64,000 nt of DNA from Sphingobacteriales bacterium (GTDB taxonomy: Bacteria; Bacteroidota; Bacteroidia; Sphingobacteriales; Sphingobacteriaceae). The notes under the pieces are model-generated. The model had not been told where the DNA came from and did no database searches. It saw nothing but the letters and a program-made list of their open reading frames with translations. The translations under genes and the position numbers were made by a program. Shown piece by piece: positions 3,058 through 14,370 of this stretch; position 1 is the stretch's first letter, and every line of letters starts with the position of its first letter. The stretch is from contig JANXOD010000008.1 of NCBI GenBank assembly GCA_025353765.1, forward strand, positions 62,001 to 126,000, read 5' to 3'.

Positions 3058-3348
3058 ATGCTAAATACAAATGATATAGCCAAAGTATATGATACTATAA
3101 TGAGTATCCCTGGCATGAATGAAAAGGTAAAGATTGATATGAAAATCTCACGTAAAAATGTACTATTATTAAATAGTGTTATCAAACGAGGTTTGGATTC
3201 AAAAGATAGCGATAAGTCTTCCAACCTTCTAGGCAACATACCCGAAGAAACTTTGAAGGAACTTAGTGCTTTTGCTGATGAATGCCTAACAAAGGCGGGA
3301 CTGACAGAACTTAGTGAAAAGCTCAATTCTTTAAATACCAGCAAATAG
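3058..3348 (+). CDS. Hypothetical small helical ICE protein
   Basis: A 96-residue, probably cytoplasmic protein with no signal peptide or membrane segment. It is mostly helical with many Lys, Ser and Leu residues (for example SRKNVLLLNSVIKRGLD). I do not recognise a family. It stands alone on the plus strand between two minus-strand genes and has its own TAnnTTTG promoter with a palindrome. The location between mobilisation and cargo suggests an element maintenance or control gene, but that is inference only. Confidence 0.6.
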   Translation: MLNTNDIAKVYDTIMSIPGMNEKVKIDMKISRKNVLLLNSVIKRGLDSKDSDKSSNLLGNIPEETLKELSAFADECLTKAGLTELSEKLNSLNTSK

Positions 3349-3361
3349 CTAAAAATAAAAC

Positions 3362-3568
3362 TTAGGCATTAGTAACCCAGCCGTTTTCATTACGAATATC
3401 TGTTATCTTATTATCTAACAGCCATTGTCGAAATGAATTTTCATCCAATGGAGTATAGTGAATGATTCCTCCATCTTTTAGCATGATGGTGAAGAAATTT
3501 GAAACCGCCAAAAATTTGGAAAGTTCACTGGCTTTATAATCGAAACCTGGATAGCTGGTTCTGGTCAT
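3362..3568 (-). CDS. Hypothetical 68-residue protein behind a structured leader
   Basis: A short acidic/aromatic protein without recognised domain (MTRTSYPGFDYKASELSKF at the start, ending NGWVTNA). It converges with the gene at 3058 (13 bases between stops). Its 5' leader on the minus strand carries the strongly folded element at 3640-3746 and a second hairpin at 3600-3628, so its expression may be under RNA control. The ORF is short, and its coding status rests mainly on the clean start and the leader. Confidence 0.5.
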   Translation of the reverse strand: MTRTSYPGFDYKASELSKFLAVSNFFTIMLKDGGIIHYTPLDENSFRQWLLDNKITDIRNENGWVTNA

Positions 3569-3639
3569 AACATTTACTTTTTAGTATTTTGTTTAGACTG
3601 CCTGCTATTGTAAAAAATAAGCGCAGGCAACAACTTACC

Positions 3640-3746
3640 GCACTGAGGTCTTAGGAAACCCGGTAACAATAAGTGCGCCCACGCCGTAGCATGAGCGTTC
3701 TTCACTTAATGTCCCATTACCTTTGAAAGTTCCTAAGTTTCAGTGC
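3640..3746 (-). ncRNA. Structured RNA candidate, possible cis-regulatory leader
   Basis: The two ends of this 107-base stretch pair through successive helices. P1 is GCACTGA 3640-3646 with 3740-3746; P2 is 3650-3657 with 3730-3737; P3 is GGTAA 3662-3666 with 3717-3721; P4 is TAAGTG 3670-3675 with 3703-3708. The tip, read on the minus strand, is a 9-pair helix CGCUCAUGC / GCGUGGGCG closed by a UACG tetraloop. That tip helix needs two U-G pairs that are allowed only on the minus strand, so the minus strand is the likely RNA. Downstream, CGGUAA (3635-3640) could compete for the 3' arm of P3, hinting at a switch. I do not recognise a named family. Confidence 0.6.
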
Positions 3747-3908
3747 AGGACTTAAAGCAAAAACGCTTCAAGAATATTTGTCTCAAAGATACAATTTTGG
3801 TTAAATATGGTATTAAAAAAGAGTATTTAGTAAATTATCAATAGTTCGTTATGGTTAACATTTAGCAATCAGCTAAAGTATATTACATTAAGTTTTACAG
3901 ATAGTGAA

Positions 3909-4355: not shown

Positions 4356-7300
4356 ATGCTTAACAAAATCATTCATTTCAGTATAAAAAACAAACTCATT
4401 ATCGCGGTAATGACCTTGGCTCTCATTATTTGGGGTTTGTGGAGTGCTTCTAAGTTGCCTGTTGATGCCTTACCCGACGTTACCAATAATCAGGTGCAGG
4501 TAATAACTCGGGCTCCCACATTGGCAGCGCAGGAAGTAGAACAGTTTATCACATTTCCGGTTGAACGGGCTTTATCAAATATCCAGGGAATTGACGAGAT
4601 GCGTTCCTTCTCCCGTTTTGGATTAAGTGTAATAACTATCGTTTTTAAAGAAGATATAGATATATATTTTGCCCGGCAACTTATTGCAGAAAAATTAAAA
4701 ACTGCAGAACAGCAAATTCCTAAGGGCATGGGTACTCCTGAAATGGGCCCCGTTACTACGGGGCTAGGTGAAATCTATCAGTATGTTATTCATCCCAAGA
4801 AAGGAAGTAAACAAAAATATTCTGCAATGGATTTACGTACCATGCAGGATTGGATTGTAGGCCGTCAATTAACTGGTATCCCTGGTGTGGCAGAGGTAAC
4901 GGGTTTTGGTGGCATAAGTAAGCAGTACGAAGTGGCGGTGAATCCGGAAAGGTTAAAGGCTATGAATGTAACCATACCTGAAATTTTTACAGCCCTTGAA
5001 AAAAATAATGAAAATACCGGGGGTGCATACATTGACCGAAAGCCGAATGCCTATTTCATTCGTGGTGTGGGACTGGTAAAATCCTTTGCCGATATTGAAC
5101 AGATTGTTATTAAACAACAAAGTGGTATCCCTGTATTGATAAGGGATGTAGCTACTGTACAATATGGTTCGCCGCCACGCTATGGTGCTATGACCTATAA
5201 TGGCAAAAAAGAAGTGGTAGGTGGTATTGTACTGATGATGAAAGGTGCTAATAGTGCATCTGTTGTAGAGTTGGTAAAAGAAAGAATGATAACGGTTCAA
5301 AAATCATTGCCGGAAGATGTAGAAATAGAAGCATTTTTAGACCGAACTAATCTAATTGACCGGGCTATCAATACAGTAAAAACAAACCTTGTGGAAGGTG
5401 CATTAATTGTAATATTAGTATTGGTCTTATTCTTGGGAAATTTTCGTGCAGGATTAATAGTAGCATCTGCCATTCCTTTGTCTTTATTGTTTGCACTTGC
5501 CTTAATGAATTTATTTGGTGTGAGTGCTAACCTAATGAGTTTAGGAGCAATTGATTTTGGTTTGATTGTGGATGGTGCTGTAATTATTGTAGAAGCAACC
5601 CTGCATTTTTTAGGAACAAAAAAATTGACAGATAAGCTTACGCAACTGCAAATGGATGAAGCGGTAGAAGGAAGTGCGGGGAAAATGATGAGCTCAGCAG
5701 CCTTTGGGCAAATTATTATCCTTATTGTATATCTACCCATTCTTTCTCTGCAAGGTGTTGAAGGGAAAATGTTTCGTCCCATGGCAGAAACAGTAGCTTT
5801 TGCTATTTTAGGCGCATTGATTTTGTCACTCACTTATATTCCCATGATGAGTGCTTTGTTTCTTTCCAAAAATATCAACCAAAAAAGGAATTTTTCAGAC
5901 AGGATAATGGACTTTTTTCAACGTGGATATTCACCGCTTTTAAAAGGAGCTATCAAAATAAAATATGCAGTAGTAGGTATTGCTGTGGGTTTACTAATAA
6001 TCTCCCTCATCATTTTTAAAAATATGGGGGGAGAGTTTATACCTACATTAGAAGAAGGCGATTATGCTGTTGAATTTGTATTGCCCCAAGGGTCATCCTT
6101 GTCACAAACCACAGAAACAGTAATGATGGCAGAACGGATGCTATTGAAATTCCCGGAAGTAAAAATGGTAGTGGGTAAAACAGGAGCTGCGGATATTGCT
6201 ACAGATCCTATGCCGCCCGAAGCTTCAGATTTAATAGTAATACTAAAACCGAAAAAAGAATGGACTACCAATAAAGATTTTTATGCGTTGTCTGATATAA
6301 TAAGGGATAAACTCTCCACTATTCCAGGAGTAATAGCTGAGCCAAGCCAGCCCATACAGATGCATTTTAATGAATTGATGACAGGTATACGGCAGGATGT
6401 GGCCATTAAAATATTTGGCGAAAATCTAGATTCACTTATTGCTTATGCTGATAAAGTGGCCAAAATAATCAGACCTATTGAAGGTATTACTCAACCGCAG
6501 GTAGAAAGAGTAGATGGCCTTCCGCAGATTACCATCGAATACGACAGGGCAAAAATAGCTGGCTACGGGTTGAATATTGAAGATATAAACCATATCATCA
6601 GTACTGCATTTGCAGGAGAGGAAGCTGGTGTCGTTTTTGAAAACGAAAGAAAATTCGATTTAATAGTTCGTCTGGACAGTGCACACCGTACAACTTTAAA
6701 TGATGTAAGAGATCTTTATATACCACTCAGTAACGGCACCCAAATTCCTTTATCACAGGTTGCTAATGTGTCGTTTAAAACGGGTCCGGCACAAATAAGC
6801 CGGGAGTCAGGTAAGCGCAGGATTTATGTAAGTTTTAATGTAACCGGCCGTGATGTGGCAAATGTGGTAAAAGAAGCTCAGCAAAAATTGAATGAAAAGA
6901 TAAAACTGCCTACTGGTTATTACTATACATACGGCGGCACTTTTGAAAATTTACAAAAAGCATCTGCCAGGTTGATGATTGTTGTGCCTCTAGCATTGTT
7001 GCTCATCTTTTTCATGTTGTATATTACTTTTAGTTCTATTAAAAAAGCCGCATTAATTTTTACCGCCATACCAATGAGTGCTATTGGCGGCGTGTTTGCT
7101 TTATTGATAAGAGGTATGCCATTTAGTATATCAGCTGGGGTTGGTTTTATTGCTTTATTTGGAGTAGCAGTACTAAATGGTATTGTATTAATAAGCACAT
7201 TCAATCAATTAGAAAAAGATGGTATGAATAACATTGTGCAACGGGTACTGGAAGGAACAAAAATCCGATTACGACCTGTGCTGATGACTGCTGCTGTTGC

Positions 7301-8675
7301 TTCATTTGGATTTTTACCAATGGCGTTTTCCACTGGTTCAGGTGCTGAAGTACAAAAGCCTTTAGCAACTGTTGTAATTGGAGGATTGATAACGGCAACT
7401 TTTTTAACATTGGTTGTGCTTCCATTGCTCTACATTATTTTTTCATCAAAAAGAAAAAAGAAAATGAAACCTCTTGCAGCTATTGTATCAATTTCTGTTT
7501 TGCTATTATTCTCCGATGTTGTGAATGCACAGCAGACCCCTGTAAAAAGAATAAGTATCAACGAAGCAATTGCATTAACAAGAAGTAACCTGCAATACGA
7601 TATAAATAACCAGCAGATAAATAAAGGCAAGGCTCAGATAAAAACGGCAACAGCATTGCCTAAAACGGGTGTATTTGCAGAGAATGAAGATTTAAGACCA
7701 AGTGATAACAAAGGTCTTTTAAAGATTGGTGTATCGCAAAGTATTGCATGGCCGGGTTTATACAAATCTCAAAAGAATTTGTACAACGAACAGTTGAAAT
7801 ATTACCAGGTTAATGCGGCGGCCATTGATATGAATATTAAAAAAGATGTCCGTACAGTTTATTACCAGCTTTGGTATCTGCAGGATAAACAGCAATTATT
7901 CCATCGCTTAGATAGTATTTATAAATCGCTTAATAATGCAACAAAGTTAAAAGTAAAGACAGGTGATAGTCCAGGATTAGACAGCATTGCTGCTAATGTA
8001 CGGATGAGTGAACTACAGGCATTACTGCAACAAATTGATAAACAGATTCAGATAGAACAGCAATCATTAATGCAATTACTCAATACAACAGAATTAATGT
8101 TGCCTGTATTGCTGCCGCTTGAAAAAATGCCTATGCCAGTGGCTGCCAGTGACAGTACACATCCCTTATTGGCTTTACAATCGCAAAACATAAATATTGC
8201 CAATGCTGGTATTTCAGTAATTAAAAATGAAAATAAGCCCGAGTTCTCAGGCCGCTTCTTCACTCAGCGATTATATGGTGTAAAAGACCCTTTCACTGGT
8301 TTTTCAGTATCGGCAGTTTTTTCGCTTTTTGGTGCCAATGCTTACTCAAATAAAGTAAAAGTAGCACAGGCAGAAATGGCAGTTCAGCAAAAGCAATATG
8401 AATATGATAAACAGGTATTCACTACCCGGCGAATACAATTACAGCAGGAAGTGGAGAAAAACAATAGTCTTTTAGCTTTTTACGAAACAGCAGGATTGAA
8501 GCAGGCTGAAGAAATTATAAAAGCAGCTTCACTTGCATATCGTGCAGGTGAAATAAGCTTTGCTGAGCTTTCTCAGTTTTTAACCCAAGCTATAGAAATT
8601 CAAAAGAATTATTTAGAAAACATGAATGGGTATAATCAATCAGTCATTCAATATTATTATTACATTAATAAATAA
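4356..8675 (+). CDS. CzcA-type RND metal efflux pump fused to a TolC-like outer membrane channel
   Basis: This 1439-residue protein joins two parts of a tripartite efflux system. Residues 1 to about 1030 form a full heavy-metal RND pump with two large periplasmic loops. In TM4 the motif DFGLIVDGAVIIVE places D400, D406 and E413 almost exactly where CzcA has D402, D408 and E415, which favours divalent cations (Co, Zn, Cd, Ni) over Cu/Ag. From about residue 1037 (in-frame ATG at 7464) a second signal-like segment (KPLAAIVSISVLLLFSD, then VNAQQ) leads into a 400-residue outer membrane factor of the CusC/TolC type. Such fusions are known in Bacteroidota. The adaptor gene follows after 6 bases. 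Confidence 0.9.
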   Translation: MLNKIIHFSIKNKLIIAVMTLALIIWGLWSASKLPVDALPDVTNNQVQVITRAPTLAAQEVEQFITFPVERALSNIQGIDEMRSFSRFGLSVITIVFKEDIDIYFARQLIAEKLKTAEQQIPKGMGTPEMGPVTTGLGEIYQYVIHPKKGSKQKYSAMDLRTMQDWIVGRQLTGIPGVAEVTGFGGISKQYEVAVNPERLKAMNVTIPEIFTALEKNNENTGGAYIDRKPNAYFIRGVGLVKSFADIEQIVIKQQSGIPVLIRDVATVQYGSPPRYGAMTYNGKKEVVGGIVLMMKGANSASVVELVKERMITVQKSLPEDVEIEAFLDRTNLIDRAINTVKTNLVEGALIVILVLVLFLGNFRAGLIVASAIPLSLLFALALMNLFGVSANLMSLGAIDFGLIVDGAVIIVEATLHFLGTKKLTDKLTQLQMDEAVEGSAGKMMSSAAFGQIIILIVYLPILSLQGVEGKMFRPMAETVAFAILGALILSLTYIPMMSALFLSKNINQKRNFSDRIMDFFQRGYSPLLKGAIKIKYAVVGIAVGLLIISLIIFKNMGGEFIPTLEEGDYAVEFVLPQGSSLSQTTETVMMAERMLLKFPEVKMVVGKTGAADIATDPMPPEASDLIVILKPKKEWTTNKDFYALSDIIRDKLSTIPGVIAEPSQPIQMHFNELMTGIRQDVAIKIFGENLDSLIAYADKVAKIIRPIEGITQPQVERVDGLPQITIEYDRAKIAGYGLNIEDINHIISTAFAGEEAGVVFENERKFDLIVRLDSAHRTTLNDVRDLYIPLSNGTQIPLSQVANVSFKTGPAQISRESGKRRIYVSFNVTGRDVANVVKEAQQKLNEKIKLPTGYYYTYGGTFENLQKASARLMIVVPLALLLIFFMLYITFSSIKKAALIFTAIPMSAIGGVFALLIRGMPFSISAGVGFIALFGVAVLNGIVLISTFNQLEKDGMNNIVQRVLEGTKIRLRPVLMTAAVASFGFLPMAFSTGSGAEVQKPLATVVIGGLITATFLTLVVLPLLYIIFSSKRKKKMKPLAAIVSISVLLLFSDVVNAQQTPVKRISINEAIALTRSNLQYDINNQQINKGKAQIKTATALPKTGVFAENEDLRPSDNKGLLKIGVSQSIAWPGLYKSQKNLYNEQLKYYQVNAAAIDMNIKKDVRTVYYQLWYLQDKQQLFHRLDSIYKSLNNATKLKVKTGDSPGLDSIAANVRMSELQALLQQIDKQIQIEQQSLMQLLNTTELMLPVLLPLEKMPMPVAASDSTHPLLALQSQNINIANAGISVIKNENKPEFSGRFFTQRLYGVKDPFTGFSVSAVFSLFGANAYSNKVKVAQAEMAVQQKQYEYDKQVFTTRRIQLQQEVEKNNSLLAFYETAGLKQAEEIIKAASLAYRAGEISFAELSQFLTQAIEIQKNYLENMNGYNQSVIQYYYYINK

Positions 8676-13019: not shown

Positions 13020-13580
13020 ATGAAATTTTACATAAAAAACATGGTTTGCAGCCGTTGCAAAATGGTGGTAAAAGCAGTCCTTGAAAATCAAAAGCTGCTA
13101 CCCTTATCAATAGAGTTGGGTGAAGTTGAGGTTGAAGGCAGCTTATCAAAAGAACAATTACTGCAATTAGACAATTCATTAAAAGCATTAGGCTTCGAAC
13201 TGATAGACAACAAAAAAAGCCAAACTATTGAAAAAATAAAAAATGCTATTGTAACATTGGTGCATCATTCCGACTATGAAATAAAAACCAGTCTTTCCGC
13301 ATTTATCACTTCACAACTACACCAGGATTATAATTATTTAAGTAACCTTTTTTCAGAAGTGGAAGGCACAACAATTGAAAAATATTTTATTGCACACAAA
13401 ATTGAAAAAGTAAAAGAGTTGCTAGTGTACAATGAATTGACATTATCAGAAATTGCCAATCAATTAGGGTACAGTAGTGTAGCCTACCTCTCCAATCAGT
13501 TTAAGAAAATAACCGGACTTACACCATCCCATTTTAAGTCGCTGAGAGAACACAAACGTAAGAACATAGAAGAACTGTAA
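13020..13580 (+). CDS. AraC-family regulator with HMA-like N-terminal domain
   Basis: A 186-residue protein with an AraC-type helix-turn-helix at the C terminus (LTLSEIANQLGYSSVAYLSNQFKKITGLTPS, here seen near residues 139-170). Residues 1-65 look like a heavy-metal-associated ferredoxin fold: KNMVCSRCKMVV carries the CxxC ligand pair and LKALGFEL matches its end. This makes a compact one-component metal sensor. It lies just upstream of an HMA membrane protein whose promoter has an inverted repeat in place of the -33 box, which would suit an activator. The metal (Cu, Zn or other) is not settled. Confidence 0.82.
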   Translation: MKFYIKNMVCSRCKMVVKAVLENQKLLPLSIELGEVEVEGSLSKEQLLQLDNSLKALGFELIDNKKSQTIEKIKNAIVTLVHHSDYEIKTSLSAFITSQLHQDYNYLSNLFSEVEGTTIEKYFIAHKIEKVKELLVYNELTLSEIANQLGYSSVAYLSNQFKKITGLTPSHFKSLREHKRKNIEEL

Positions 13581-13656: not shown

Positions 13657-14370
13657 ATGACACATACATATAAAGTTACCGGAATGACTTGTGGCGGTTG
13701 TGAAGCAAAAGTAAAAAGCAGTTTGCTTATGCTACCAAATGTTACTAACGTAGAAGTTTCCAAAGATAGCAACACAGCCACTATTACTATGGATAAGCAT
13801 ATTCCCCTTTCTACCTTTCAAAATGCGTTAGATAAAAAATATTTAATTATTGCAGAAGAACATAACGAAACAGCAGAGCAGGCAAAAAGTTGGTTAGGTA
13901 CATACAAACCCATTCTATTGATTTTTGGCTACGTCACGACCATTGCCATTATTGCGGCTACAAGGCATAGTACTGTTGATTGGATGCACGGAATGAATGT
14001 TTTTATGGCAGGCTTCTTTCTCACTTTTTCATTCTTTAAAATGCTTGACTTAAAAGGCTTTGCTGATAGTTATGCTATGTATGATATTGTGGCAAAAAAA
14101 GTAAAGGCATGGGGTTATATTTATGCCCTTATAGAGTTGGCTTTAGGAATAGCCTATGCAACTGGCTTTCAGCCCTTGCTTACTAATATGGTAACATTTA
14201 TAGTAATGACCATCAGCATTACAGGTGTATTGCAAAGTGTATTTAACAAGCGTAAAATACAGTGTGCTTGTTTAGGAGCAGTTTTCAACTTGCCTATGAG
14301 TACTGTTACCATTATAGAAGATGCACTAATGATAACAATGAGTGCAGGTATGATATTTGCCATAACTTAA
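13657..14370 (+). CDS. HMA domain protein with MauE/DoxX-like membrane region
   Basis: A 237-residue protein. Residues 1-65 are a classical heavy-metal-associated domain with MTCGGCEAKV (CxxC near residues 11-14). Residues 88-235 form about four membrane helices resembling the MauE/DoxX family, including MHGMNVFMAGFFLTFSFFKMLDLKGFADSYAMYD. A Cys pair in RKIQCACLGAVFNLP near residue 205 may form part of the metal path. Likely a membrane metal acceptor or carrier induced by the upstream regulator. Confidence 0.8.
   Translation: MTHTYKVTGMTCGGCEAKVKSSLLMLPNVTNVEVSKDSNTATITMDKHIPLSTFQNALDKKYLIIAEEHNETAEQAKSWLGTYKPILLIFGYVTTIAIIAATRHSTVDWMHGMNVFMAGFFLTFSFFKMLDLKGFADSYAMYDIVAKKVKAWGYIYALIELALGIAYATGFQPLLTNMVTFIVMTISITGVLQSVFNKRKIQCACLGAVFNLPMSTVTIIEDALMITMSAGMIFAIT

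Follow-up and report, generated by a model that had tools for sequence, protein, structure and literature searches.

The window, that is, the whole stretch of 64,000 nucleotides that was analysed, carries on its minus strand a gene for a protein of 68 amino acids (3362–3568) behind a predicted structured leader. Beyond this gene, on the same strand and past a convergent open reading frame for 96 amino acids, lie genes for a primase, a MobC-like protein and a MobB-like protein, the latter scoring under its curated cut-off, and genes for Bac_Flav TraG and TraJ are found farther along in the window. The 96-amino-acid frame (3058–3348, plus strand) has no family match above cut-off and has a homologue in the same arrangement at L005 2059–2352. 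Neither the window nor the 62 kb before it on the same contig (C6 1–126000) encodes a tyrosine integrase (PF00589), and we therefore withhold the label 'complete ICE'; the genome's four matches to this family lie at C6:471958, on the window's contig, and on C29, C37 and C38. The plus strand of the window also encodes a protein of 1439 amino acids in which an RND efflux pump (ACR_tran) and an outer-membrane efflux domain (OEP) share a single frame (4356–8675), an AraC-type regulator whose beginning matches HMA below threshold (13020–13580) and, after it, a protein with HMA and MauE domains, both above cut-off (13657–14370).

The 68-amino-acid protein gave nothing above cut-off against Pfam and NCBIfam, and homologues were found neither by peptide patterns in the genome contigs nor by tblastn in plasmids. 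A structure model (two sequences, mean pLDDT 83) gave weak matches in the PDB, the best being the FtsH N-domain at E 0.028 and none reaching E ≤ 0.001. Relatives of the gene stand behind the same kind of RNA in seven other loci of its cluster.

A predicted structured leader on the minus strand

The five stacked helices, P1 to P5, that the earlier note had seen joining both ends of a 107-base stretch (3640–3746) were found at the ends claimed, together with a tip helix that carries a C(UACG)G loop and two U–G pairs beneath it. The structure of this interval stands; its boundaries are too narrow, as the element extends from a further hairpin, P0 (3772–3751), through a U-tract (3620–3612). The whole leader covers about 3612–3783 on the minus strand and consists of P0, the long hairpin P1–P5, a terminator strand and the U-tract, with a match to TAnnTTTG, the Bacteroidota consensus of the −7 promoter box, upstream. 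When the window sequence was used as a DNA query against 200 related genomes, 33 of them had a match at E ≤ 0.1. The 16 loci judged clear, window included, are referred to as close members, and each of the 16 shows the box, P0 and the long hairpin, followed by a 3′ strand ahead of a U-run. Two arrangements are predicted for the leader: state A, with P0 and P1–P5, and state B, in which strand 1 pairs with strand 2 and strand 3 with strand 4. The features are as follows (window coordinates).

3784–3791, minus: TATCTTTG, match to the TAnnTTTG −7 box, 19–20 or 28–29 nt before P0 in 16/16 close members
3751–3772, minus: P0 hairpin of state A, predicted fold, kept in close members
3747–3770, minus: strand 1 of helix B1 in state B (3770–3755 with 3707–3692; 3751–3747 with 3715–3711)
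3748–3740 with 3646–3638, minus: P1, predicted fold
3737–3727 with 3661–3650, minus: P2, predicted fold
3721–3718 with 3665–3662, minus: P3, predicted fold
3712–3703 with 3675–3666, minus: P4, predicted fold
3697–3689 with 3684–3676, minus: P5, the 2:3 pairing (predicted antiterminator), UACG loop 3688–3685
3692–3715, minus: strand 2, pairing with strand 3 in state A and with strand 1 in state B
3666–3685, minus: strand 3, 3′ arms of P5/P4 and 5′ half of the predicted terminator helix
3620–3641, minus: strand 4, 3′ half of the predicted terminator helix (20 bp with 3685–3666)
3612–3620, minus: U-tract TTATTTTTT
3362–3568, minus: gene for the 68-amino-acid protein, ATG 43 nt past the U-tract

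Read on the minus strand, 3640–3746 has a predicted folding energy of −44.9 kcal/mol (z −6.21), which none of 200 shuffles equalled; the plus strand is structured too, less than the minus strand (−36.1 kcal/mol, z −4.35). The strand can indeed be deduced as had been claimed, because the U–G pairs of the tip would be A–C on the opposite strand. One of these pairs is U–G in 16/16 close members and, in a broader alignment with 43 distinct rows, in 41, evidence in favour of the minus strand; the letters of the UACG loop vary among relatives. A further proposal, that CGGUAA displaces P3, did not hold: the motif is present (3640–3635), but relatives, inspected by eye, do not conserve the pairing with P3, and the stretch sits instead in the 20-bp terminator helix formed by 3685–3666 and 3641–3620.

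The earlier note did not recognise the family, in agreement with Rfam 15: at gathering score, three tRNAs and nothing else were matched in the whole window and there were no matches in 16 homologous loci, and a permissive scan of 3500–3850 gave as its best hit snoR17, not a credible match at 24.6 bits where 60 are required.

Distribution, promoter and gene orientation

A covariance model built from the 16 close members (R1) had matches in 46 of the 395 Bacteroidota genomes searched and, within the host's family, in 127 of 301 sampled genomes, and a broader covariance model (R2) matched 60 of the 395, the last few weakly; these tallies count the window's own genome and the other genomes that supplied model sequences, and the E-values are rough (short calibration). 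The window's own genome contains one copy at E ≤ 1, and other genomes contain as many as six each. A scan of named genomes with the sequence pattern of P2 retrieved at least 119 stretches, the matches listed including Flavobacterium, Chryseobacterium, Elizabethkingia, Pedobacter, Mucilaginibacter, Bacteroides, Parabacteroides and Prevotella as well as, by the pattern match alone, Ignavibacteria. The model also matches two metagenome bins labelled Lentisphaerae (L119) and Pelotomaculum (L162). When 80 of the pattern loci (L104–L183) were given to the model, all 80 matched; conservation of the P2 letters in these loci is by construction, and strands 1–4 lie outside the pattern. Removal of identical cores and of matches close to locus ends reduced 171 model matches to 160 unique members, a set that leaves out pattern loci L184–L222 and the loci from the R1 family search (301 genomes) and the R2 search (395 genomes).

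Mobile DNA yielded a few further observations. Six contigs of a viral collection (L223–L228) contain the P2 pattern, and the model matches five of the six. By nucleotide similarity to plasmids and phages, a Flavobacterium-type member found a single plasmid locus, on the mobilizable plasmid NZ_CP044017.1 of Rhizosphaericola mali (L263 4001–4124; 72.7% match to 64% of the member), where it precedes a gene annotated as encoding a hypothetical protein; an ICE-type member found no match in the same collections, and the window sequence gave four weak matches to plasmids.

A TAnnTTTG box lies 15–35 nt before P0 in 108 of the 160 members, as compared with 3.2 expected from shuffles and a single case (of at most 160) in a stretch 300 nt further upstream; 52 members have no box at the expected place. 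The U-tract ends the element at the equivalent place in 127/160 members against a control-window mean of 18.4 and is absent in 33. A simple script for gene calling placed the next gene on the strand of the RNA in 138 of 154 loci and the previous gene in 59 of 159. Where the gap before the gene is at most 100 nt, a further TAnnTTTG box occurs in none of 51 cases (2.4 expected), and where it exceeds 100 nt, in 5 of 73 (9.5 expected). As judged from these sequence features, the element is a promoter-proximal 5′ leader on the strand of the gene that follows. Its own box and U-tract, the presence of up to six copies per genome and the diversity of the following genes would also suit a free-standing, trans-acting small RNA that carries both promoter and terminator, next to which the neighbouring gene would be incidental or sometimes co-transcribed. 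Gene orientation speaks against such an RNA, as does the lack of a second box in short gaps, though only 2.4 were expected there, and a free RNA would have no need for the two covarying, mutually exclusive folds described below, so that we consider this explanation unlikely.

Two predicted, mutually exclusive folds

The earlier note had looked to compensatory changes in P1–P5 for support of the structure. They were found for P1, P2 and P3; P5 is nearly invariant and P4 was not counted as a separate helix. Among 45 aligned members (43 distinct rows), changes on both sides occur in 6/6 counted pairs of P1, 5/7 of P2 and 3/3 of P3, in an alignment that was fitted to the model's state A, so that pair counts lean that way. 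In the same alignment, 94.8% of cells pair (structure including a GUCC/GGGAC helix), as compared with 32–41% when partners were slid and 80.7% when partners were dealt anew. An alignment of the 16 close members that was not fitted to the structure still has changes on both sides in 10 of 38 pairs. P1–P3 are thus a conserved, covarying domain of predicted aptamer-like character. For the 2:3 pairing itself there is little covariation (p 0.045 to 0.84), and it is conservation that speaks for the predicted antiterminator.

Constrained folding of 113 members revealed the second arrangement, state B, which consists of 1:2, formed by the P0 region and the 5′ arms of P4/P5, plus 3:4. Strand tests were carried out with members that have a recognisable P5 motif and mostly a U-tract too (111, 113 or 117 of the 160), and the models R1 and R2 by which the members had been found did not include the 1:2 or 3:4 pairings. 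In alignment-free comparisons, strand 1 pairs better with its own strand 2 than with swapped partners in 116/117 members (−19.6 versus −14.2), and still in 90/99 when the GUCC/GGGAC part is omitted. This part had been considered as a pseudoknot of state A; in constrained folds it forms, at least in part, the base of the longer B1 helix. For strand 3, the own strand 4 is the better partner in 96/113 members, a modest preference (−21.3 versus −19.3) in which a median of 28% of the swaps are as good. Kinship inflates cell counts, and the swap test among representatives therefore carries most weight: below 75% identity, the own partner is better in 24/24 cases for 1:2 and in 21/24 for 3:4, and below 70% identity in 15/15 and 14/15, respectively, with no own-partner preference for the combinations 1:3, 1:4 and 2:4. 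The helices of the predicted state B thus covary as well. The terminator pairing is also better than that with shuffled tails in 109 of 111 members.

For the leader in the window, state A is predicted at −60.8 and state B at −51.7; in 98/113 members, the fold of lowest energy is state A, the means being −58.4 for state A and −51.2 for state B. As state A is energetically favoured in most members, termination would need kinetics or a factor. As the transcript grows, its predicted minimum-energy fold contains the 1:2 helix in 111/113 members after strand 2 has been made and, up to the point where strand 4 appears, the 2:3 helix in 113/113; with strand 4 included, 95/113 retain P5 and 18/113 show the terminator. 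Both an intrinsic terminator and a competing antiterminator, as expected of an attenuator, are present in the predicted folds. Taken together with the promoter box, the compensatory changes in P1–P3 and the position of the gene on the same strand, this competing terminator bears out the idea that the gene at 3362–3568 has a structured leader on the minus strand.

The layout of 1:2 plus 3:4 against 2:3 is shared with the attenuators of trp operons, in which 1:2 and 3:4, the terminator before a U-tract, compete with the antiterminator 2:3. Such a likeness raises the question of whether ribosomes translating a leader peptide could run the switch. Within the first 40 nt, 110 of 160 members have a short frame starting with ATG, GTG or TTG, and ATG frames overlap strand 2 in 97 of 160. 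However, ATG frames of 5–40 codons in the first 40 nt, that is, a possible leader peptide over strand 1 as in trp, occur in just 4 of 160; the GTG and TTG cases stem from conserved letters of P0, with frame and peptide varying (by eye), and the leader of an ICE member (L015) contains no ATG. In addition, strands 2 and 3 are held here by the long conserved hairpin P1–P3, and we know of no trp leader with a comparable hairpin. We regard control by a leader peptide as improbable.

Following genes and the proposed switch

The genes following the RNA are diverse and have no common pathway. Among the 160 members, they encode a SusC-type receptor in 43 cases, the most frequent class across the wider family, a response-regulator receiver in 12, an ECF sigma factor in 9, the 68-amino-acid ICE family in 8, an unassigned cluster in 8, RibD/DHFR-like proteins in 7, TlpA-like proteins in 4, RteC in 2, an unassigned family of 104 amino acids in 2, other small clusters in 5 and singletons in 38; the next gene is on the opposite strand in 16 cases, and in 6 there is no gene in the sequence at hand. 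These classes are sequence clusters, each named from few members. Matches to Pfam above cut-off comprise two RteC, one ECF sigma factor, one RibD, one TonB plug and two receivers, a third receiver being weak; the names SusC, SusD and TlpA were given by recognition. SusD is the second gene in 10 loci. In two Mucilaginibacter loci (L126 and L148), the RNA stands directly before rteC-type genes (Pfam RteC, E 1.3e-43 and 2.5e-65); RteC is a regulator of excision in CTnDOT-type elements.

In the window, the element lies about 1.8 kb from the MobC-like gene with the MobB-like relaxase beyond, and single-stranded DNA also tolerates G–T pairs, so that one may think of a DNA element folded as a single strand, such as an origin of transfer, a single-strand origin or a recombination hairpin. 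Nevertheless, the commonest following gene in the wider family encodes a SusC-type receptor, the orientation is fixed, and the box, the U-tract and the distance to the start codon all belong to transcription; we regard a DNA element as very improbable.

We propose, with a probability of roughly 0.7, that the element is a cis-acting, two-state transcription attenuator of a riboswitch-like class that is absent from Rfam. Minus-strand transcription would begin immediately 5′ of P0, and the first pairing, helix B1, would join strand 1 (the P0 region) to strand 2 (the 5′ arms of P4/P5). Should B1 persist, strand 3 would be free for strand 4 beside the U-tract and the polymerase would stop before the gene for the 68-amino-acid protein. 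Should P1–P5 zip up instead, strands 2 and 3 would pair, P0 would close on itself, no terminator would form and the polymerase would read through. The choice may be set by a ligand or an RNA-binding protein that stabilises one of the folds, or by the speed of transcription, and the internal loops of P1/P2 or P0 could perhaps be an effector site. Comparison of sequences shows the promoter box, the U-tract, the compensatory changes in P1–P3 and in both helices of state B, and the position before genes of the same strand; we infer that the RNA is made, that the outcome is a stop or read-through, in what order the helices form and that a signal is sensed.

Riboswitches that control transcription combine a conserved structured domain in the 5′ leader with a mutually exclusive terminator, and both are predicted here; the following genes without a shared pathway and the absence of an Rfam match set the element apart from them.

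In the literature searched, with most subscription papers, preprints and supplements outside its scope, no description of the element was found. Other RNAs have been described in Bacteroidetes (PMC9723704, PMC2864571, PMC8040213, PMC7366714), and term searches of PMC11109978, PMC8632094 and PMC6429828 yielded no relevant passage. Among the RNAs from Bacteroides, RteR is a trans-encoded RNA of 90 nt and DonS a cis-antisense RNA; they are RNA regulators tied to conjugative-transposon tra genes or susC genes (PMC7366714), as the element described here would be; it differs from both in that it is a sense-strand leader with a predicted competing terminator. The Bacteroidetes candidates HMP2_1032 (106 bp) and HMP_4078 (109 bp) are described as palindromic on both strands, one being a predicted terminator near TonB and one lying near phage integrase domains (PMC8040213); they are of similar length and from Bacteroidetes, and as the comparison is by description only, identity with the element may hold.

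A wider reading, which we regard as possible although somewhat doubtful, is that the element is a new Bacteroidota riboswitch class with a small-molecule or protein effector, whose bistable fold would tie genes of conjugative elements (small ICE proteins, RteC and response regulators) to the very cellular signal by which SusC/TonB nutrient uptake and ECF sigma factors of the chromosome are controlled. If the proposed attenuator is right, a widespread and apparently undescribed RNA switch stands before outer-membrane uptake systems and mobile-element genes, and its effector, if found, could reveal a signal common to nutrient uptake and horizontal gene transfer in Bacteroidota.
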